Shown: one piece after another, positions 54,529 to 64,000 of the stretch
How the letters are laid out: each line of letters opens with the position of its first letter
Numbering within the stretch: position 1 is the first letter of the stretch
Source: Mucinivorans hirudinis
GTDB lineage: Bacteria; Bacteroidota; Bacteroidia; Bacteroidales; Rikenellaceae
Length of the DNA: 64,000 bases
Reading direction: 5' to 3'
Assembly: GCA_000723505.1 (NCBI GenBank)
Contig: HG934468.1
Span: forward strand, 2,264,798-2,328,797
The notes under the pieces: generated by a model
Told to the model about the DNA's origin: nothing
Seen by the model: the letters and a program-made list of their open reading frames with translations, nothing else
The model's database searches: none
Position numbers and translations under genes: made by a program

Positions 54529-54813
54529 TTAAAGAGGTGTTTTCCTATCTTTCTTAATGGAAAAAATGATCACTTTTCTGTCTGGCGCAAATTCCATACG
54601 TTTGGTATGAATGTTTAGTAGATTTCGTCCTTTATGAGTTCTAACGGAGAATCTTCCGAAATTATGCAGACTGACATTGTTGCCCTGCTTGAGCGAGTCT
54701 GATATGATATCTAAAAGCGACTCTGCAATTTCGTTAAGTTCCCATAATGGATAAATTGTACCCTTTTCTGATAGTTGCTCCTGTAACTTGTTAATTAACT
54801 GTTTTTTATTCAT
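54529..54813 (-). CDS. HU/IHF-family DNA-binding protein
   Basis: This 94-residue DNA-bending protein has the helical N-terminus MNKKQLINKLQEQL and the core VSLHNFGRFSVRTHKGRNLLN, then the arm and C-terminal strand MEFAPDRKVIIFSI. Such HU variants are common on Bacteroidales mobile elements. It follows the 68-residue gene by 4 bp. Confidence 0.88.
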   Translation of the reverse strand: MNKKQLINKLQEQLSEKGTIYPLWELNEIAESLLDIISDSLKQGNNVSLHNFGRFSVRTHKGRNLLNIHTKRMEFAPDRKVIIFSIKKDRKTPL

Positions 54814-54817
54814 TGGA

Positions 54818-55024
54818 TTAAAAAGAGTATCGAGAACATAATGGCTTTATGTGTATCTCGACACGCTTGTCTTCCAAAATCCGCAACATCGCTTTATAAA
54901 GAGGTAGCTCTTCTACCCCTGCTATTTTGAGTGCCTCAATCTTCATCGTGTTTTCGATGAGTTCAAGATACTCTTGCTCGGTGATTGTTACATATTTTAT
55001 GTGGTTAGATTTTAACTTGGCCAT
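54818..55024 (-). CDS. Small hypothetical protein before the HU-like gene
   Basis: The 68-residue protein is not recognised. A GAGG Shine-Dalgarno-like site precedes the ATG, and the 49-bp leader repeat (55033-55081) lies 9 bp upstream, shared with the gene at 55450-55989. It probably forms an operon with the HU-like gene. Confidence 0.6.
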   Translation of the reverse strand: MAKLKSNHIKYVTITEQEYLELIENTMKIEALKIAGVEELPLYKAMLRILEDKRVEIHIKPLCSRYSF

Positions 55025-55032
55025 AACCTCGA

Positions 55033-55081
55033 TTGGTTACATCTATATCCTTCAGTTTATCATCTATAATCTTTCAGTTTA
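55033..55081 (-). promoter_or_regulatory. Leader repeat, copy 1 (two 21-22-bp iterons)
   Basis: The 49-bp sequence is nearly identical (2 differences) to 55999-56047. On the minus strand it contains two tandem units of the form TAAACTGAARGAT-ATAGATG, and it ends 9 bp before a start codon. It could be an operator for a shared regulator. Confidence 0.75.
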
Positions 55082-55474
55082 CTTTTCGCCGTAGTCTGCC
55101 GGAATCTCACCCCACTCTCTATTATCCCAATGTAGAACTTCAATAGTCTCGACCTCTGCGGCAAAGGCTTTCAGAAACACCTCCGCTTTTTGAAGTGCAG
55201 GATTGCGTTTCTTAGAGGCTGTGCGCTTTGCTTTAAACCACGCTATTGCTGTGGTGCTATCGGTATAGATGGTTCGTGGAGAGTAGCCGTTTGCGATAAT
55301 GTATTTGACCGCTTCGACTACTCCCAAGAACTCTCCTATATTAATAGTCTGAAGACCCAGAGACACGCTGAACAGCTCTTCGCCCGTGGATATATCCACA
55401 GCTCTGTATCGGGTTAATCTGTTTTTGGTGGAGTGAGCGCCGTCTGTGGCTATTCCGTGAGTGGGTCGGCACAT
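55079..55474 (-). CDS. RNase H-fold protein
   Basis: This 131-residue protein fits a type I RNase H-like fold: first Asp in ATDGAHS, Glu in NIGEFLG, Asp in IYTDSTTAIAWF, and a final Asp in EIPADYG. It may cut RNA in RNA-DNA hybrids or act in element replication. It overlaps the upstream gene by 25 bp, and its stop lies inside the leader repeat. Confidence 0.75.
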   Translation of the reverse strand: MCRPTHGIATDGAHSTKNRLTRYRAVDISTGEELFSVSLGLQTINIGEFLGVVEAVKYIIANGYSPRTIYTDSTTAIAWFKAKRTASKKRNPALQKAEVFLKAFAAEVETIEVLHWDNREWGEIPADYGEK

Positions 55475-55989
55475 TGTAACACGTAGTCCGGTACATGATA
55501 TCCATCTCGACGCATACGTTGTACGACCTGCTTCGCTTTGTGAGATAGGTCTTCGATGACCTGTTCGACATCTTCAATTTCTCCTGTATCTCGGAGAAAT
55601 TTGGTGATACCCGCCAGTGTTCTGGTGGATACGTTTCTACCGTCTTTGGGGTCGAAGTAGACGATTTTGTTTCCAAACGAAACGGTTACTTGATAGATTC
55701 CGTTTGAAATGATGAATGTGTCTACATGAGCTTTGAATAGAGCTAACCTTGCCGACACGACCACATAGCCTGTGCTATTGTGCATCGGCTTTAATTCAAC
55801 GTCATAAAGTTTGTTGACTTGAATTTTGTCTTTGAGCTCTTTTGCAAGAAGACAGATTTTTTTGCCAAAGCGGGAATCCTCTCGAACCCCAAGTAATTTA
55901 CTGGTTTTTGATTGACGAGATACAAAACCTATGATCTCGCCTGTCTGCTGTGATACCGCAAATTTCATTTGCGTTTTCTCCAATTCCAT
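55450..55989 (-). CDS. Hypothetical protein of the RNase H module
   Basis: The 179-residue protein is not recognised. It has a beta-rich first half (MKFAVSQQTGEIIGFVSRQS) and a helical C-terminus (VEQVIEDLSHKAKQVVQRMRR) that could bind nucleic acid. It is coupled to the RNase H-like gene by overlap and has the shared leader repeat 10 bp upstream. Confidence 0.6.
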   Translation of the reverse strand: MELEKTQMKFAVSQQTGEIIGFVSRQSKTSKLLGVREDSRFGKKICLLAKELKDKIQVNKLYDVELKPMHNSTGYVVVSARLALFKAHVDTFIISNGIYQVTVSFGNKIVYFDPKDGRNVSTRTLAGITKFLRDTGEIEDVEQVIEDLSHKAKQVVQRMRRDGYHVPDYVLQCADPLTE

Positions 55990-56141: not shown

Positions 56142-56804
56142 CTATCGTTTTACCTGTAAATAATCTTGTTCCGTTACGTGACTGAAACGCTCGTCAGATG
56201 AGGACGTTACCTCACATTGCCAGTACCTGTATGTCCGTCCTGCTTGGAGGTTGTAAGGATATACATCAAATTCTTTCAAAAAAAGTATGCCGATGTCGTA
56301 TGCAAATGGGGTTTGTACCTCTGGAAAGCGTTCGTTGGGCTGTCGATAGAGTTTTTTATACTCGGTTCCATATACCCAAATGTTGGTCAATCGAACATCA
56401 GGGTCGATGTCGTATCTCTTTGCCCACTCTACAAAGTCATATATATCGGTCTCGATTAGTCGGTGGTTGAAATGGTCGCCTGCCTCAGCTTCGAGTCGCT
56501 TGTACGAGTCCCAAATCGGTTGTCGGGTGAGAATCTCTTTGTATCGCTTCTCTGTGACATAATCAGTGGTGTACCACAGGAGCTCATACCCATTACCGGT
56601 GGAGTCCTCGATATATGCACGGTCGAATTGGTACCGCTTTACCATATAACTGTTGTCGATGTCTATCTCATCATAGCCCATACAGGAGCGAAAGAGCCCT
56701 ATAACGGCGATGAGTATCAAAAAAGAAGTGGTGCCACCCAAAAGTAACACCACTCCACAGCCCTTATCAGCTATATCAATGAATCTATTCGTCTTGTTCA
56801 TCAT
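56142..56804 (-). CDS. Hypothetical membrane-anchored protein
   Basis: A single membrane helix (about residues 12-38, GCGVVLLLGGTTSFLILIAV) precedes a ~180-residue soluble, acidic, Tyr-rich domain that is not recognised. The ATG at 56804 follows an AGG site. A truncated copy of this gene's first 24 codons remains at 59377-59449, so the gene originally followed the MutS-I-like gene in the duplicated block. Confidence 0.6.
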   Translation of the reverse strand: MMNKTNRFIDIADKGCGVVLLLGGTTSFLILIAVIGLFRSCMGYDEIDIDNSYMVKRYQFDRAYIEDSTGNGYELLWYTTDYVTEKRYKEILTRQPIWDSYKRLEAEAGDHFNHRLIETDIYDFVEWAKRYDIDPDVRLTNIWVYGTEYKKLYRQPNERFPEVQTPFAYDIGILFLKEFDVYPYNLQAGRTYRYWQCEVTSSSDERFSHVTEQDYLQVKR

Positions 56805-56818
56805 AATCCTCTGCTTGG

Positions 56819-57049
56819 TTAATATTGACCACAAATTTCTTTTACGTGCGCTCGCGCTGTCTCTGGAGCGACAAATCCCTCCATATATTTTTTGAGCTCT
56901 TCATCGCTCATTGCGTTGAACTTATTGAGCAGTTCGGTGATGGCGGCATTGAGGTAGACCGGTGCAATCCAGCTGTCGTCCAACACTCGCTTGATGCGTT
57001 TGTCCATAGGAATAAGCTTTTGTTCGGTGGTTTTCTTTTCTCGTGGCAT
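56819..57049 (-). CDS. Hypothetical protein, duplicate of 60920-61165
   Basis: The 76-residue protein starts PREKKTTEQKLIPMDKRI and is about 80% identical by eye to the gene at 60920-61165 up to near its end, where the C-terminus is altered by the junction at about 56836. It is helical and charged, function unknown. Confidence 0.6.
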   Translation of the reverse strand: MPREKKTTEQKLIPMDKRIKRVLDDSWIAPVYLNAAITELLNKFNAMSDEELKKYMEGFVAPETARAHVKEICGQY

Positions 57050-57050
57050 A

Positions 57051-57355
57051 TCAGCTTGCTATTTTGTTGGTTTGATTGTAGAGCCAGATGGTGTATATGT
57101 AACCTTTTCCGCCACGATAGGCAACAGCATAGGTTGCATTATCGAATGTTTCCCAGTTGCATTCTCCAACTGTATATCTCTCTTGGTAGTCGTCTTGGTG
57201 AAACTCGGTGAGCATCTTTTTCTGCTCGTCGTTCACCTCATCACTGGTCAGGATAAACTTTGGAGTCGCCCAAATCAATATCCATAAAGTAGACCTCGCG
57301 GTCGCCGCATTTGAGCTTATCCGGATCGCCCTCCATCAGAGATAGCGGTTCAAAC
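57051..57355 (-). pseudogene. Frameshifted duplicate of the gene at 61167-61571
   Basis: Residues from FILTS to the end (TNKIAS) are nearly identical to the second copy, but one extra base near 57260 shifts the frame, and a deletion at about 57355 removes the 5' part (the 61471-61914 segment of copy B). No intact start remains. Confidence 0.8.
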
Positions 57356-57455
57356 TTTATCACCATCGAAATCAGTTCTGACCATCAGTGTGTCGTCTTC
57401 GATCACGAAAGATTCCACTACGCAATTAACTCCGGTGTCCTCGGTTGCTCTATAC
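57356..57455 (-). pseudogene. Fragment duplicated from the gene at 61573-62142
   Basis: About 100 bp match 61915-62014 (the CGCAATTAACTCCGGT region and its flanks) with about 15% differences. Homology ends near 57455, where unrelated GC-richer sequence begins. Confidence 0.75.
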
Positions 57456-57641
57456 GTCTCTATAATTCGCATCCCGCATCTCCCCCAACCCCCCCCACGG
57501 AAAAAAATCCGTCTTCATCCGCTCGATCCGTCTTATCCGTGTTCTATTTCAGGGCGCAAAGATGAGCCCCTACGGGGGAATATCGCAGCAGCTCCGCATC
57601 GGGAAAGCAAGATGAAGTTGAAAAGATACACGAAATACTAT

Positions 57642-58502
57642 CTACATAGAAAAAACAAGACGAAACCCATAATCGTCAACAATAGTAGAAGGTGCTCTGT
57701 TCAGGCGATAAAACACCGCGCAACAATCCTCATGCCAAGCAAAGCTGCCTCCTCTAAGCACCCGATTCCGTCCTCTGACCGAACCGCACGGATTGATATT
57801 ATCCCGCTCCGAATACAACCCATACCGATCCCAACACCATTCATACACATTGCCGCTCATATCATACAATCCCAACTCATTTGGCATCAGTTCGCCAACG
57901 CGATGACAATACTCACCACTGTTGTCGCCTGTCCACCCCACCGCATCAATCTTATTGCTTCCCGAATAGAGAAAACCGTTACTCCTACGCCTGGCTCTTG
58001 CAGCAAATTCCCACTCTGCCTCGGTCGGCAAACGAAAACCTCTTCTTCCTTTCATCCATTTAAAACCTGATCCACATCTCACATAGGTAGGCTTGTGGCC
58101 ATATCGTTTGTTCAAGGCATTGCAAAACTCCACGCACTCACCCCAAGAAACATTCACCACCGGACACTCGTCGACAATATCCTTCGGCACATACCCAATC
58201 GGAATAGAGCCGGCTGTTTCTTCCGGTAATTCGATGGCAAATTCGCCCCCAATCGCTTCTATCCGGTCTCGCGAAACAAACAACACATCGTTTCCATCCT
58301 CATCGAAATCAGACGGATTATATCCCATAACCTCCACCCATTGGGCTTGAGTTACGGGATATTTACTCATGAAATAATCCGACAGCGTTACCTCACGCAT
58401 AGGCATTGTGTCAATACGTTTGTCACTTCCCATCTCAAACGAACCGCCCTCCACAAAAAGCATTTCAGTAACAAATTTATCTATTATTCCACCTGCACAC
58501 AT
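57642..58502 (-). CDS. SUMF1/FGE-fold protein, catalytic cysteine pair incomplete
   Basis: The 286-residue protein has the formylglycine-generating-enzyme fold: FVEGGSFEMGS, YPVTQAQW, PVVNVSWGECVEFCNAL, GFRLPTEAEWEFAAR, GLYDMSGNVYEWCWD, VLRGGSF and GFRLVF. Of the two copper-binding Cys of true FGEs, the first position is Trp (SFAWHEDCC) and only the second is Cys, so oxidase activity is unlikely. It may act as a binding or structural domain. Its ATG overlaps the stop of the upstream gene by 1 bp. Confidence 0.88.
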   Translation of the reverse strand: MCAGGIIDKFVTEMLFVEGGSFEMGSDKRIDTMPMREVTLSDYFMSKYPVTQAQWVEVMGYNPSDFDEDGNDVLFVSRDRIEAIGGEFAIELPEETAGSIPIGYVPKDIVDECPVVNVSWGECVEFCNALNKRYGHKPTYVRCGSGFKWMKGRRGFRLPTEAEWEFAARARRRSNGFLYSGSNKIDAVGWTGDNSGEYCHRVGELMPNELGLYDMSGNVYEWCWDRYGLYSERDNINPCGSVRGRNRVLRGGSFAWHEDCCAVFYRLNRAPSTIVDDYGFRLVFSM

Positions 58503-59221
58503 TACTTTGGGGCAGTATCGGTTGCATACTCGTATAGCTTTTTGATGTCTTTTGATTCTATGATTCTATTAGCGCACGTCACTTTGTGGCGATCATCGTA
58601 TAAACCATAAAACACAATAACAGTCCCTACCAAATTAGTACTGTTCAACTTGAAAACACGCTCGTCTTGCGGATCATTTTTTAGCCCGACGATTCTACAT
58701 ACATCAAGCTCTTTATCTTTGATCGTAAGATTGTCTATCTTCTCAAATTCATACCCCATCCACACACTATTTTTATTTCTTCCCCAATAGCATTGCGCCC
58801 TTTTGTTTTGAACGATAATCAAGCGCGGAGCAAGCCTCTCAATCTCTTCTTGAGTAATGGCGAGCAGTTGCCCCATCAATGGTAAATTTGTTTGAAACAA
58901 TCGCTCGAAATCCTCTTGCTTCGAGAAAAAGAGAGGAAACAAATCAAGGTAGGCTGCTTTGGGAAGAAAGTTGCCAAGCATCTGTTTTGTTCTCTTCCAG
59001 TAAGGTGTGCTTTCATTGGTATCTTTTAGGCTGGAACATATCTTCTCATTGCTGGATGCTTCCTTCGTATTGTAGGACGGATTGATCCCAACAACCAAAA
59101 TTTCTTCTTCGGGATTATTCTTTACATAGAAAACCCCACGATTAAGCACCTGAATAATCTCCGTTTCTTGTTGATTTTGGGTCTTGAATTTATCAATGAC
59201 CTCTCTGATCTTTTCTTTCAT
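58502..59221 (-). CDS. Uracil-DNA-glycosylase-like protein
   Basis: This 239-residue protein has VVGINPSYN (about 43-51), which recalls motif A of MUG/TDG-type uracil-DNA glycosylases (GINPG), and a central RLIIVQNKRAQCYWG strand. The remaining motifs are not clear, so the fold call is tentative. It forms a two-gene unit with the SUMF1-like gene and appears inserted within the duplicated block. Confidence 0.45.
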   Translation of the reverse strand: MKEKIREVIDKFKTQNQQETEIIQVLNRGVFYVKNNPEEEILVVGINPSYNTKEASSNEKICSSLKDTNESTPYWKRTKQMLGNFLPKAAYLDLFPLFFSKQEDFERLFQTNLPLMGQLLAITQEEIERLAPRLIIVQNKRAQCYWGRNKNSVWMGYEFEKIDNLTIKDKELDVCRIVGLKNDPQDERVFKLNSTNLVGTVIVFYGLYDDRHKVTCANRIIESKDIKKLYEYATDTAPK

Positions 59222-59376: not shown

Positions 59377-59449
59377 ATTCTCCAAATAGCAACACCACTC
59401 CACAGCCCTTATCAGCTATATCTATGAATCTATTCGTCTTGTTCATCAT
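59377..59449 (-). pseudogene. Truncated 5' end of the membrane-protein gene at 56142-56804
   Basis: It encodes MMNKTNRFIDIADKGCGVVL as in the intact copy, then diverges at about 59383. It overlaps the end of the MutS-I-like gene, as the intact gene's ancestor must have done. Confidence 0.75.
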
Positions 59450-59744
59450 AATCCTCTGCTTGGTTAATATTGACCACAAAATTGCCGTCACTATCTCGCA
59501 TTTCGGAGATACATATCGCACAGCCGGCATCTAACAGTGTGTTTGAAATCTCCTCTTGTTCCGTCTCGGCAATACGGACGGTTAATACACCATCTATGAC
59601 GGTGGATGCTAGCCCCGCAACGGTTGCAACAACGGTTGCATCCTGTTCGTATGCTTCAAAAAACTCTCCGTTGTGGAATAGTATGATTGTCTCTTCTCCT
59701 CGTCGAGCCTTCATTGCTTGGAGAGCTTCGGTTTTACTTATCAT
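59430..59744 (-). CDS. Stand-alone MutS domain I-like protein
   Basis: The 104-residue protein reads TIILFHNGEFFEAYEQDATV, closely like the start of MutS domain I, where GDFYELF holds the Phe-x-Glu that probes mismatched bases. Here that pair is Phe28 and Glu30. The following ATVAGLA and ISNTLLDAGCAICISE segments also fit domain I. Nothing else of MutS is present. Domains like this may recognise DNA distortions in element-coded proteins; the role is unknown. Confidence 0.6.
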   Translation of the reverse strand: MISKTEALQAMKARRGEETIILFHNGEFFEAYEQDATVVATVAGLASTVIDGVLTVRIAETEQEEISNTLLDAGCAICISEMRDSDGNFVVNINQAEDYDEQDE

Positions 59745-60102
59745 CGTTATCTTGTTTTTGCTGTTTATTCAAGCATTTGGTGCAGATACCTTGGTTGCGT
59801 TTCCACTGAGATATATTTGTATTCTCGCCGCAACTCGTGCAGGGTCTATGAGTTATTTTGCTGTCATAAACTATTTGCTCGATGTAGCTTCTTGAATACC
59901 CATACTTTTTCATCAAGGCTTCAATAATATGCCTTTTGACTAATCTGCGATCCTTGGTTTGCTCCTTAAACTCAAATAAAATAAGGTTGTTACGCACTAT
60001 CTTAGTGTCAAGTAGATGCCTGACACTTATCACTGTTTTTATGTCAATCTTCTGGATCCTTGCCAGAAAAAGTAACTCTTCTTTTGATAATTCTTTTCTC
60101 AT
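59734..60102 (-). CDS. Hypothetical protein with C-terminal zinc ribbon
   Basis: The 122-residue basic protein has a helical first part (ELLFLARIQKIDIKTVISV, then VKRHIIEALMKKYGYSRSYI, resembling a helix-turn-helix) and a zinc ribbon CTSCG...CTKCL (about 86-107). It may be a DNA-binding regulator. It overlaps the MutS-I-like gene by 11 bp. Confidence 0.6.
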   Translation of the reverse strand: MRKELSKEELLFLARIQKIDIKTVISVRHLLDTKIVRNNLILFEFKEQTKDRRLVKRHIIEALMKKYGYSRSYIEQIVYDSKITHRPCTSCGENTNISQWKRNQGICTKCLNKQQKQDNDDK

Positions 60103-60203: not shown

Positions 60204-60623
60204 TCATATTTCTTTGTAGTTTCTCAAATGTGTATAGATAATCTCGCCAAGTTGCTCCTCATTTTCAATTTTGACTCGATTTCCAATGGGTAATGCACTT
60301 TTCAGAGGTGTAAAGTAAATCGAGAAATCTTCGCCATCAGGAACAGAGAATCCGCCCACGGTTTGCAAGCCTACCTTAATTCTGTAGTACTCTTTAATGG
60401 GGCGGTAAGTTTCCGGGTTGGGAATCTTTATCGTTCGTCGTTTCTTGCGCATATATGCTGCCAGTAGCTCATATACGGGAATGATAACCTCATTTAAGTA
60501 GCTTGGCGAGGTGGGCATCTGTAATTTGCGCTCTTCGCTCGAAAGACGACAAACCCTTTCAATTTCACTGAGATATAAATCTAAACGCTCAGTGTACGCA
60601 TCAATCAATTCTTGAAAATTCAT
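60204..60623 (-). CDS. Hypothetical protein of the accessory island
   Basis: The 139-residue protein is not recognised. It has a helical N-terminus, a basic central patch (RKKRRTIKIP) and a beta-rich end. It lies 12 bp after the LPD28 gene. A 100-bp gap without a gene follows. Confidence 0.55.
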   Translation of the reverse strand: MNFQELIDAYTERLDLYLSEIERVCRLSSEERKLQMPTSPSYLNEVIIPVYELLAAYMRKKRRTIKIPNPETYRPIKEYYRIKVGLQTVGGFSVPDGEDFSIYFTPLKSALPIGNRVKIENEEQLGEIIYTHLRNYKEI

Positions 60624-60635
60624 TGTATCACTGTT

Positions 60636-60923
60636 TTAGTTTTCGATTGTTCCTATTTCACCAAGAAAATTATAATCTTTAATGGGCGTATAATCTCCTT
60701 TGGTCATCTTAATTGGTTCCTGCGTGAGTATTGTTCCGGTGTGATTGACCAACACAACTGGTTCTATGGTGGAAAAATCACGCCTGTCTCCGGAACGAAT
60801 ATCATAAGCGTAATAACCTTTGGGAAGCGAGTCGCGGTCGACTCGAGCATTGGTAAATAGTGCCGGAATGTTATTTACCTCAATCTTTTGGAAGTCTGTT
60901 TCTAAATAATGTATCGGTTTCAT
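60636..60923 (-). CDS. LPD28-domain protein
   Basis: The 95-residue protein carries the LPD28 pattern: PALFTNARVDRDSLPKGYYA, YDIRSGD, IEPVVLVNHTGTILT and ending in NFLGE. LPD28 is a small domain of large polyvalent proteins on plasmids and phages; stand-alone copies are common in conjugative elements. It marks this island as mobile DNA. Confidence 0.8.
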   Translation of the reverse strand: MKPIHYLETDFQKIEVNNIPALFTNARVDRDSLPKGYYAYDIRSGDRRDFSTIEPVVLVNHTGTILTQEPIKMTKGDYTPIKDYNFLGEIGTIEN

Positions 60924-61165
60924 TCTTGGATGTTGTTTAGTCGATTATAAATCTCTTTTACGTGTTCTCGGGCAGTTTCAGGTGCGACAAGCCTGCTCAT
61001 ATATTGGGTTAGTTCCTCATCGCTCATTGCGTTGAACTTGTTGAGCAGTTCGGTGATGGCAGCATTGAAGTAGACCGGAGCAATCCAGCTGTCGTCCAAC
61101 ACTCGCCTAATACGCTTGTCCATAGGAATGGGCTTTTGTTCGGTGGTTTTCTTCTCTCGTGGCAT
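60920..61165 (-). CDS. Hypothetical protein (intact copy of the 56819-57049 gene)
   Basis: The 81-residue charged helical protein starts PREKKTTEQKPIPMDKRI and is not recognised. It overlaps the LPD28 gene by 4 bp (ATGA). Its close duplicate lies 4 kb away. Confidence 0.65.
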   Translation of the reverse strand: MPREKKTTEQKPIPMDKRIRRVLDDSWIAPVYFNAAITELLNKFNAMSDEELTQYMSRLVAPETAREHVKEIYNRLNNIQE

Positions 61166-61166
61166 A

Positions 61167-61571
61167 TCAGCTTGCTATTTTGTTGGTTGAATTGTAAAGC
61201 CAGATGGTGTAGAGATAACCTTTGCCGCCACGATAAGCAACAGCATTTGTAGCTTTGTTGAATGTCTCCCAGTTGCATTCTCCAACTGTATATATCTCTT
61301 GGTAGTTGTCTTGGTGAAACTCGGTGAGCATCTTTTTCTGCTCCTCATTAACCTCATTGCTGGTCAGGATAAACTTAGTGTCGCCCAAATCAATATCCAT
61401 AAAGTAAACCTCTCGGTCGCCGCATTTGAGCTTGTCCGGGTCACCCTCCATCAGAGATAGCGGTTCAAACATGGCATCATCCGGGTCGATGTCGAAACTC
61501 TTTACCCAGCTGTGTAGCTCGGGATAGTATGCAATCCCCTCGCTTATTTCAGTTACTATGATTGTCTTCAT
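61167..61571 (-). CDS. Hypothetical protein (intact copy of the 57051-57355 pseudogene)
   Basis: This acidic 134-residue protein starts at the ATG at 61571 (MKTIIVTEISEGIAYYPELH). It has repeated acidic loops (IDPDDAMFEPLS, MDIDLGDTKFIL) and a Gly-rich AYRGGKGYLYTIWLY end. Not recognised. Confidence 0.65.
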   Translation of the reverse strand: MKTIIVTEISEGIAYYPELHSWVKSFDIDPDDAMFEPLSLMEGDPDKLKCGDREVYFMDIDLGDTKFILTSNEVNEEQKKMLTEFHQDNYQEIYTVGECNWETFNKATNAVAYRGGKGYLYTIWLYNSTNKIAS

Positions 61572-61572
61572 A

Positions 61573-62142
61573 TTAGATTTCGTTTGAAAATTCATATATT
61601 TCGGTAAGAATAAAATCGCCGGTCCCAAATTCGCATAGAGATTTCAAGTCGGTCAGAGATTTGCAATAGTAGAACACCAAATCATCTTGGTCGTCCAACT
61701 CATTATTGAGTTTGATAGTCACATCGCAAAGGGGGCTGTTGTCCAGAAACTTCACACAACACGATACATAGAGCGGTTCGTCATTATGTTCATCTACATA
61801 GGCTTTGAACATGCCGTCTATTTTTCGCTGAAGGTGCTCCTTGTTCGCCTCCAACATCAGATAGAGAATATTGGCTAACTCTTCAGCGTGGAAGCTATCC
61901 AATTCTAATGTGAACTTATCACCTTCAAAATCAGTTCTGGCCATCAGTTTACCGTCTTCGATAACAAACGATTCTACTACGCAATTAACTCCGGTCTCCT
62001 CAGTGGCTTTGTAGGTTCGCCCATTTGCAGGCTCAACCTCTCCGCCAAGTATTTGCACCAGCAGAAACATCGACTGCTTAATCTTTTCGTATCGCTCCTT
62101 AATCTCTGCTTTGAGAGATTGTATCTTTTCTAATTCGTTCAT
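61573..62142 (-). CDS. Hypothetical protein, coiled N-terminus
   Basis: The 189-residue acidic protein begins with a helix of coiled-coil type (ELEKIQSLKAEIKERYEKIK), followed by a beta-rich domain with an AELANILYLMLEANKEHL helix. Not recognised. It lies 1 bp before the next gene, as in an operon. Confidence 0.65.
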   Translation of the reverse strand: MNELEKIQSLKAEIKERYEKIKQSMFLLVQILGGEVEPANGRTYKATEETGVNCVVESFVIEDGKLMARTDFEGDKFTLELDSFHAEELANILYLMLEANKEHLQRKIDGMFKAYVDEHNDEPLYVSCCVKFLDNSPLCDVTIKLNNELDDQDDLVFYYCKSLTDLKSLCEFGTGDFILTEIYEFSNEI

Positions 62143-62144
62143 TG

Positions 62145-62396
62145 TTAGTTGTATTTAGGTTTACAGCGTTTCATTACTTGTAAATCATCATAGCCGATAC
62201 TTTTCAGTTCAGCCAAAAGGTTGGAGTACTCACTCTCCGTGGCGGGAGTAGTTGCAGCGATTACTCCGGCATAGTCAGCATCTGAATGCTGTCCAACGTG
62301 CATATAAGAGCCTACCATTAGTCTATTGATCTGCTCTGGGAACAAGGCGATAATATCACCGCCCTGTTTGAATTTGCGAAAAACTACCTTAGTCAT
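62145..62396 (-). CDS. Small conserved mobile-element protein
   Basis: The ATG at 62396 gives an 83-residue protein of a type often seen in conjugative elements: VVFRKFKQGGDIIALFPE, then GSYMHVGQHSDADYAGVI, ESEYSNLLAELKSIGYD and a basic end. The function is unknown. Its start overlaps the 56-residue gene by 8 bp. Confidence 0.7.
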   Translation of the reverse strand: MTKVVFRKFKQGGDIIALFPEQINRLMVGSYMHVGQHSDADYAGVIAATTPATESEYSNLLAELKSIGYDDLQVMKRCKPKYN

Positions 62397-62559
62397 TGGT
62401 GCCGCATATTTCGGTGTCAGTAATATTGAAGTCGCCCACACCGCCGAAACTGTAATCGGATTCAGAGATAAGCTCTTGCACATCTTCGTCTGTAATCTGT
62501 TCCACCTTGTCGTTCTCAATGTCGAGACGGATAGTGATATAAACTGTTTTAGTTGCCAT
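62389..62559 (-). CDS. Small acidic protein (56 residues)
   Basis: An ATG at 62559 opens a 56-residue frame: MATKTVYITIRLDIENDKVE, then an Asp/Glu-rich middle and a SYSFGGVGDFNITDTEI segment. It overlaps both neighbours (11 bp upstream, 8 bp downstream), which supports it as a coupled gene. Not recognised. Confidence 0.65.
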   Translation of the reverse strand: MATKTVYITIRLDIENDKVEQITDEDVQELISESDYSFGGVGDFNITDTEICGTND

Positions 62560-62929
62560 TTTTTTCTTCGTTTTCTTTGGTTAATGTATAATCTATACTT
62601 GTCAGAATATCGCTGAGCCAGTGCACATTTGTGCAGGCAAAGTCGTGATCTTTGCTAGAAAGGGTCAAAGTATAACCCATGCATTCGCTGTATACTTCAA
62701 TCTCGAAATCGGTTTCACCATCCAGCATTACGGTTTGCACCACACAGTCGTGTCCGCATCCGTCATCGTCGAACCACACCACATAAGAGAGGTGATCGGG
62801 CTCTTCATCCAAGGTTACCACTGTGATGTCGTTACTTTTAAGCAGGTCGATAATCGCTTCGGTTATCTCTTTTCTCAGAGCCACGATGCGGTCGTCGAAA
62901 CTATTAATCAGGTCTTGCGTCTGTTTCAT
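62549..62929 (-). CDS. Hypothetical acidic protein
   Basis: The 126-residue protein has a helical start (QTQDLINSFDDRIVALRKEI), a DDDGCGHDC loop and a Trp/His-containing end. Not recognised. It is coupled to the 56-residue gene by overlap and lies 2 bp from the upstream gene. Confidence 0.6.
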   Translation of the reverse strand: MKQTQDLINSFDDRIVALRKEITEAIIDLLKSNDITVVTLDEEPDHLSYVVWFDDDGCGHDCVVQTVMLDGETDFEIEVYSECMGYTLTLSSKDHDFACTNVHWLSDILTSIDYTLTKENEEKNGN

Positions 62930-62931
62930 TG

Positions 62932-63591
62932 TTATCTGTTTAAGATTATTATTTCCACACGCTGAGAGCGTACAAATTCGATTGAGTCGGTGGAGACAAT
63001 TTCACCATCCGAAATGATGTCTTGATCGTCGAGAGTAACCATATCTTCTTCCAGTAGGTCGCAGATGAAACCTCCGCTCTTATCAGATACAGCGTAAACT
63101 TTACCGTCCAACTCTTTCATAAACTCGTCGTAGTCCTTGAATATATAGAGGTGTTTACAGGGAGCCATAATGATCCTCAGATTGTACTCCCGAAATTTAT
63201 CCGGTGTCATTTTGGTGCCTTTGAACAGGGATTTCGAGTTGCTGAAAATGCCCTTCATCAGTTGTCTGACATACTCCTCTTGGGTAATCTCTTCAACCTC
63301 GGCAAAGCACATTGCCAAGTCATCAACGGTTATTTTGAAGTCATCAGGCAGCCGATTGCCATAACGGTTCTGGTTGATGGTGCGGCGCATCTGTTCATCC
63401 AGCATTGCGTTGCCGACACCGGGATATGTCAGAAACAAATACCTCCCTTCACACTGAGCAACACCAAAGCCATCAAACAGATAGGCTGTAATCTCCTTCT
63501 CATCAACCTCTGGAAAATCCGGTGTATTTAGCTCCATCGTCAGGCTTACCAGTCCGCCCAACTCTTCGATTCTTTTTGCATTTATATTCAT
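62932..63591 (-). CDS. Hypothetical protein, first gene of the island operon in view
   Basis: The 219-residue protein is not recognised; it has a KDYDEFMKELDGKVYAVSDK stretch and ends basic. A small hairpin GCGAG/CTCGC lies 20 bp upstream (63609-63623), and the IS630 copy begins soon after, so the operon promoter may have been supplied or cut by the IS. Confidence 0.6.
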   Translation of the reverse strand: MNINAKRIEELGGLVSLTMELNTPDFPEVDEKEITAYLFDGFGVAQCEGRYLFLTYPGVGNAMLDEQMRRTINQNRYGNRLPDDFKITVDDLAMCFAEVEEITQEEYVRQLMKGIFSNSKSLFKGTKMTPDKFREYNLRIIMAPCKHLYIFKDYDEFMKELDGKVYAVSDKSGGFICDLLEEDMVTLDDQDIISDGEIVSTDSIEFVRSQRVEIIILNR

Positions 63592-63669: not shown

Positions 63670-64000
63670 TTAATTTTGAATTGACGGATATAATTTTTTG
63701 AGTTTTATTCTTGCATCTTCATTTGTAAATTGCCAGTTAATTTTCAAGTTTGCGTTATTTCGATGGTTTTGCCACGCTTCTACCTCAGCGATAACTTTTT
63801 CTTTGGTAGGAATATGCCTATTCAAACACTGACCATTGAGCACGTGTAACTCTATCTCTGCCATATTCAACCAACTGCCGTGCTTGGGAGTTAAAATAAA
63901 CTCAAATCTATCCCATAACTCCTTTGCCTGCTCAGGTGGAAAAATCTCATAAAAAGCAGAACCATCGTGAGTTTTGAAGTTATCCATAACCAATTTTATC
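63670..64000 (-). mobile_element. IS630-family transposase (5' part outside window)
   Basis: This is the C-terminal part of a DDE transposase of the IS630/Tc1 superfamily: LVMDNFKTHDGS with the second Asp, PKHGSWLNMAEIE with the final Glu, then QCLNRHIP. The frame is open to the window edge. The element's left part cannot be judged. Confidence 0.9.

Follow-up and report, generated by a model that had tools for sequence, protein, structure and literature searches.

The first domain of MutS is usually known as the start of a huge repair machine driven by ATP, and a gene that encodes this domain by itself raises the question of what the domain could do alone. Such a gene lies in a 64,000-nucleotide stretch of the Mucinivorans hirudinis genome (contig HG934468.1, positions 2,264,798 to 2,328,797), called the window below. 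A preliminary description had drawn attention to a 104-residue protein resembling MutS domain I and had placed it on a mobile element, where it might bind mismatches or compete with the MutS of the host.

Identity of the 104-residue protein

The open reading frame proved to be real and lies on the minus strand, which the preliminary description had left unstated. It begins with ATG, and the same frame read on the plus strand is interrupted by stops.

59430-59744, minus strand: stand-alone MutS domain I protein, 104 aa (Pfam profile, AlphaFold2, Foldseek, VIA-align)

The motif GEFFEAYEQDA that had been singled out is present as residues 26-36 (F28, F29, E30), with the Phe-x-Glu pair at 28 and 30. 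In a Pfam scan the MutS_I profile (PF01624) matched residues 15-83 with 33.7 bits (E 4.8e-8; curated cut-off 20.6), bearing out the described resemblance. It was the only domain to reach its cut-off; the connector, core, clamp, ATPase and other MutS domains were unmatched, in agreement with the clamp, lever and ATPase having been described as absent. An AlphaFold2 model built from a two-sequence alignment contains three helices and five strands, with residues 84-104 at low confidence (mean pLDDT 76.8 and pTM 0.69 for the best model; the other four average 63.2 to 48.6). All 50 matches listed by Foldseek for this model were MutS/MSH chains (best E 1.1e-5). VIA-align gave Z 14.0 to MSH3 (8om9_B; 86 residues, 2.0 Å) and Z 12.8 to residues 10-112 of E. 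coli MutS (6i5f_B), compared with Z 5.6 for XPB helicase, the best fold other than MutS/MSH among the matches listed. The predicted fold is that of MutS domain I.

A MutS_I search of the whole genome found three places: the chromosomal MutS (895-aa frame, 148.3 bits), the window gene (32.8 bits) and a copy at 2963325 (L012). Using the window protein as query added a stand-alone paralogue at 1843365 (L013), 49-50% identical to it and barely over the MutS_I cut-off at 20.9 bits, together with a short tail fragment (window 56788-56835). By profile and predicted fold, the product of the window gene is a stand-alone MutS domain I, distinct from the MutS of the host. With domain I of MutS/MSH proteins (e.g. 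E. coli MutS residues 2-115) it shares the fold and a G-x-F-[FY]-E-x-[FY]-x-x-D-A core, but it has no connector, core, clamp, lever or ATPase and is very acidic.

Other searches added little. The window protein had no match among PDB sequences or PHROGs at E up to 1, nor in plasmid records at E up to 0.01, and its single MutS match in NCBIfam was far under the cut-off. Pattern scans with single proteins, either the window protein or that of a second genome of the same order (G663), did not find relatives, and a promoter and terminator scan gave signal no greater than in shuffles.

Gene neighbourhood and phage relatives

Relatives of the stand-alone gene were found in Bacteroides neonati, B. 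graminisolvens, IMG/VR records (G698 and G699), the genome G663 and a faecal bacteriophage clone from Mexico (MT836406; 10.6 kb, deposited UNVERIFIED and without annotation). MT836406 encodes the same two MutS_I proteins as G663 and was the sole match among 50,697 phage records (E up to 1). G698 and G699 carry one identical MutS_I sequence, which the B. graminisolvens and B. neonati contigs share, judged by motif and identities; as these contigs are possibly the same records renamed, all four were counted as one lineage. Several neighbours of the window gene recur around its relatives and make up what we call the arm:

62932-63591, minus strand: 219-aa conserved arm gene (synteny)
62549-62929, minus strand: 126-aa conserved arm gene (synteny)
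62145-62519, minus strand: 124-aa conserved arm gene (synteny)
61573-62142, minus strand: 189-aa conserved arm gene, matched in G698, B. neonati and B. graminisolvens
61167-61571, minus strand: 134-aa conserved arm gene, 94% identical in this genome's prophage
60920-61165, minus strand: 81-aa conserved arm gene (synteny)
60636-60923, minus strand: LPD28 (large polyvalent protein associated domain 28), small solo protein (PF18843, 91.1 bits; MT836406 homologue 101.4 bits)
60204-60623, minus strand: 139-aa conserved arm gene, matched in L012, G663, G698, MT836406, B. neonati and B. graminisolvens and not in this genome's prophage
59734-60102, minus strand: basic helical zinc-ribbon protein of 122 aa, whose gene shares 11 bases (59734-59744) with the MutS_I gene
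58502-59221, minus strand: 239-aa protein, no Pfam family over cut-off; second extra gene between MutS_I and the next arm gene
57642-58502, minus strand: FGE-sulfatase-domain protein; extra gene between MutS_I and the next arm gene
56788-57457, minus strand: decayed second copy of part of the arm, holding fragments of the 189-, 134- and 81-aa genes and a MutS_I tail of 16 codons (56788-56835)
56142-56834, minus strand: protein with a membrane-like N-terminal stretch (by eye); in relatives, the next arm gene after MutS_I
55450-55989, minus strand: 179-aa conserved arm gene (synteny)
55079-55474, minus strand: RNase H-like protein, 131 aa (synteny; homologues against Pfam RNase_H E 4.6e-5 and 2.6e-4, under the curated cut-off)
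54818-55024, minus strand: 68-aa conserved arm gene (synteny)
54529-54813, minus strand: HU-family DNA-binding protein (PF00216, 59.4 bits)

The window, this genome's prophage, G698, B. neonati and B. graminisolvens have in common, with gains and losses, the order methylase/SNF2, 204 aa, DUF4116-like, 219, 126, 124, 81, zinc ribbon, MutS_I, membrane-like, 179 and RNase H. The arms of G698, B. neonati and B. graminisolvens also carry the 139-aa, 68-aa and HU genes; in the arm of this genome's prophage these three and LPD28 were unmatched. G663 and MT836406 keep the order for the genes that are present and lack the zinc-ribbon and 81-aa genes. LPD28 was found in the window, G663 and MT836406 and as a fragment in L012, and was unmatched in the loci of the prophage, G698, B. 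neonati and B. graminisolvens. The two extra genes of the window (57642-58502 and 58502-59221) were unmatched in the other element stretches compared.

Identity between the window and the prophage runs at 86-95% from the DUF4116-like to the 81-aa gene and falls to 49% across the zinc-ribbon/MutS_I pair; the three genes after MutS_I have 76%, 53% and 79%. This profile looks like module exchange. Set against B. neonati, the pair (43% and 50%) does not stand out as the most divergent section of the arm.

On the stretch with the 1843365 paralogue, a Mu-type portal (PF06074, E 5e-49) is accompanied by a ClpP-like head protease, a DUF2586 tail sheath, a tape measure and hub proteins of the baseplate. 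Further Portal_Mu matches came from G698, G699 and G663, which puts a portal of this type some 23-45 kb away from the stand-alone MutS_I gene in all four records searched, two of which share one MutS_I sequence. Measured start to start, the portal match and the MutS_I gene are about 23 kb apart in this genome, 31.5 kb apart in both G698 and G699, and 45 kb apart in G663, whose portal is on the opposite strand. The window copy is a remnant without a portal, since the sole Portal_Mu match of this genome lies on the stretch of the 1843365 paralogue.

The mobile setting proposed earlier stands, with phage structural genes in the records of the paralogue and the relatives. A conjugative home for the stand-alone form was provisionally set aside, as Mu-type portals and other phage structural genes occur in the same records. 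The element carrying stand-alone MutS_I looks like a tailed phage, and its relatives and chromosomal copies suggest that it is temperate with a host in Bacteroidota. The best explanation of the gene order is that stand-alone MutS_I belongs to a syntenic cargo arm of such a phage.

Three further features were seen in these elements. A transposase end (DDE_3, 44.8 bits) lies within the arm remnant at window 63670-63993. G663 has a second MutS_I gene in the same arm (L050:5692-6168, equal to MT836406 3884-4360), whose product has a 66-residue N-terminal extension and scores 56.5 bits. The related phages also encode a reverse transcriptase with a YSDD box (L066:15348-16622 of IMG/VR record G698, RVT_1 E 1.8e-21; also G663 near 284874-286124), which found no counterpart among eight stretches compared from this genome. 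IGxxxSQ is the pattern of diversity-generating reverse transcriptases; it is absent here, and no adenine-biased repeat pair was found in about 44 kb.

Relation to polyvalent proteins

Iyer et al (2017; PMC5512222) described MutS-I within polyvalent proteins of Bacteroidetes and Firmicutes as the only instance to date of this domain outside MutS. About 80% of their MutS-I domains co-occur with ArdC-N, the two being grouped together, and for the fused domain they suggest DNA binding, at short single-stranded stretches soon after entry. The same authors link LPD28 with an MPTase and note that several LPDs also occur solo, near phage or transfer genes. By titles and abstracts, theirs is the sole paper on mobile elements among those found to name the MutS-I domain, and in the literature searched LPD28 was mentioned there alone. 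The portion of PMC5512222 consulted names no solo form of MutS-I, and no report of a stand-alone phage MutS_I was found in literature searched largely without subscription papers.

The genes analysed here resemble the polyvalent proteins in that MutS_I occurs outside MutS, in mobile DNA of Bacteroidota, in company with LPD28, LPD29, a DNA methylase and a helicase. Polyvalent proteins are encoded by phages or conjugative elements; here a phage arm is indicated through the paralogue and the relatives, the window copy being a remnant. They differ in architecture: polyvalent proteins have 2 to 15 domains per polypeptide, whereas the window protein has one domain over cut-off in 104 aa, and on the putative tailed phage the domain makes up an entire protein of 97-110 aa (158 aa for the second G663 copy). 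Fused instances were seen in G219 (ArdC-N, MPTase and MutS_I; 753 aa) and in G082 (RadC, methylase, MutS_I and helicase; 2131 aa), which has a close homologue in G186. ArdC-N domains, which are antirestriction domains that bind single-stranded DNA, thus co-occur with MutS_I in G219, but had no match among those arm proteins near the stand-alone gene that were scanned (a subset of ORFs). The polyvalent-type neighbours of stand-alone MutS_I are LPD28, LPD29 and an N6_Mtase plus helicase. Several arm genes are single pieces of what is fused elsewhere into polyvalent proteins, namely solo LPD28, LPD29, the adenine-methylase/SNF2-helicase and MutS-I. The phage carries these pieces as separate small genes, and its stand-alone MutS_I is a small, unbundled version, a modest extension of published work and not a new system.

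In the light of this setting we tentatively propose that stand-alone MutS_I is a DNA-associated accessory or counter-defence protein of the phage. The protein would be produced together with the zinc-ribbon protein, and its domain I fold would direct it to phage DNA that is distorted or partly single-stranded, or to a partner that binds such DNA. It may act soon after phage DNA entry or during replication, shielding or handling the phage DNA against host processing. Counting against this proposal are the patchy spread of the gene, the lack of a match for the partner in some relatives, the fact that other arm genes diverge more than the pair when compared with B. neonati, and the rearranged window copy without a portal; the strong acidity of the window protein also speaks against direct contact with DNA.

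Charge and the overlapping zinc-ribbon gene

The window protein has a pI of 4.1 and a net charge of -16 in 104 aa, and its domain I alone carries -10 or -11, whereas 39 distinct domain I sequences bearing the GDFYE motif average +0.7 and span -5 to +5. Its gene overlaps that of a basic protein. The 122-aa zinc-ribbon protein has a pI of 9.7 (net +11 in the two measured) and is predicted to form five helices followed by a zinc ribbon (pLDDT 88.2, pTM 0.62), with Cys 88, 91, 107 and 110 conserved in all four aligned rows. This protein may bind DNA; a fold search with its model gave nothing significant (best E 0.77).

These charges raise the main alternative to the accessory proposal, possible though less probable, in which the fold is kept as the scaffold of an acidic protein-binding module. 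The target of such a module would be either the zinc-ribbon partner or a factor of host repair or defence, and the module might work by mimicking DNA or by regulating the partner. The loss of the mismatch-stacking Phe in relatives (below) would fit this alternative as well. Across the stand-alone proteins net charge is -16 for both the window protein and L012, -8 for L013 and -7 for L061 (47% identical to the window protein), all of which have a zinc-ribbon partner, and 0 for both G663 proteins, for which the partner was unmatched. Acidity is therefore not universal, which weighs against the alternative, and the Glu and EAY core is invariant in a five-row alignment (A4) of the domain; moreover, the partner is only putative. 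Nor is the zinc-ribbon/MutS_I pair universal, because the synteny comparison left the partner unmatched in both G663 and MT836406.

A bolder idea, which we consider improbable, is a two-gene phage system in which a complex of acidic MutS_I and the basic protein of the overlapping gene would recognise distorted phage or host DNA and block or divert mismatch repair, recombination or defence of the host. If true, the MutS fold would have found a new use here, with no ATPase and, in most lineages, no stacking Phe.

Residues that read mismatches

In MutS, the Phe of the Phe-x-Glu pair stacks onto the mispaired base; an Ala in its place disrupts specific binding, and a Gln in place of the Glu abolishes discrimination (PMC3848065). 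Every one of the 43 genomes tallied has GDFYE in its MutS (37 frames of MutS length, one of 674 aa and five shorter, probably cut by contig ends). The stand-alone proteins vary: GEFFE in the window and L012, GNVYE in L013, GDSFE and GESCE in G663 and MT836406, and GDYYE in the Bacteroides and IMG/VR records. Unlike MutS, four of the five stand-alone lineages have replaced the Phe (by Val, Ser, Ser and Tyr), the window with L012 being the one to keep it; the Glu is retained in 5/5. Among MutS_I proteins that are neither MutS nor stand-alone, the motifs are EKGYE (G331), GNTYE (G343), NEVYR (G219) and GSFYE (G082 and G186), so that over all groups outside MutS the Phe is present in 2/9 and the Glu in 8/9. 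The tally comprises 83 rows and leaves out a broken copy (G235), a weak match (G483, 553-aa frame) and a contig-edge fragment (G255).

The preliminary description had named absence of the Phe-x-Glu pair from homologues as an observation that would speak against it, and this holds for the Phe and not for the Glu. The reading of base mismatches as such does not appear from these sequences to be the conserved job of stand-alone MutS_I, and since the mismatch-reading Phe is lost in most relatives, the window protein probably assists the virus and is not a sensor of mismatches.

This bears on the model proposed earlier, by which the protein would bind mismatches or compete with host MutS, and would thereby impair mismatch repair and lower the barrier that keeps diverged DNA from recombining. 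Phe and Glu are indeed kept at the reading positions in the window protein, in its 95% identical copy and in the polyvalent homologues G082 and G186. Against this, the Phe is missing in most stand-alone lineages, lever and ATPase were unmatched, and the strong negative charge (pI 4.1, net -16) and missing clamp make competition with host MutS less likely; the portions of the literature consulted offered no support for competition by domain I alone. We regard this model as highly improbable.

Selection and ancestry

The window protein and the 2963325 copy are identical at 98/103 residues (95%), with dN 0.023 and dS 0.118. The resulting dN/dS of about 0.2, from point estimates without a statistical test, is in line with purifying selection on the stand-alone gene. 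In comparison with L013 (49/97 identical; dN 0.49), dS is 2.4 and saturated.

In a tree of domain I, five of the six stand-alone rows group together (100/100), and a long branch separates this clade from 28 domain I rows of MutS, including that of the host. The sixth, the 158-aa G663 protein, groups with MutS and polyvalent rows. The tree has long branches and a midpoint root, and its bootstrap was not settled, so that support values are rough. An origin as a fragment of the MutS of the host was rejected, as the stand-alone clade is separate from the host row; owing to the long branches, unsettled bootstrap and midpoint root, the rejection is limited to a recent origin from the host gene.

That the gene is a functionless remnant, a MutS fragment or decaying phage gene merely carried along, is suggested by its rearranged arm without a portal, the decayed second copy (56788-57457) and nearby transposase genes, and is very doubtful given the dN/dS of about 0.2 between copies, a gene order common to other host species and a clade separate from host MutS (with long branches and rough support). 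A free domain I that is apparently under selection, with its Glu fixed and its Phe variable, is a natural experiment in what the domain is capable of by itself.

Distribution

In the class sample 287/296 genomes matched MutS_I, and six, this genome among them, did so in more than one place. The extra places in the other five are frames of 2131 and 2132 aa (G082 and G186), 757 aa (G219) and 400 aa (G331), and a frame with seven stops (G235). Within the order, profile A2 matched 14/393 genomes and found small frames in two (G000 and G663); the remaining twelve comprise nine with 869-909-aa frames and three whose frames are 444, 446 and 553 aa long. The stand-alone family is rare in the order. 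A broader profile, A3, matched 373/393 genomes of the order, nine of them in more than one place. The survey of extra places leaves out G036, G545, G606 and G632 and three of the four places in G343, one of which is a frame of MutS length. Finally, G343 also encodes a 423-aa protein (L085:1459-2730) with MutS_I near its start (90 bits), the motif GNTYE and no further Pfam match at E up to 0.05.
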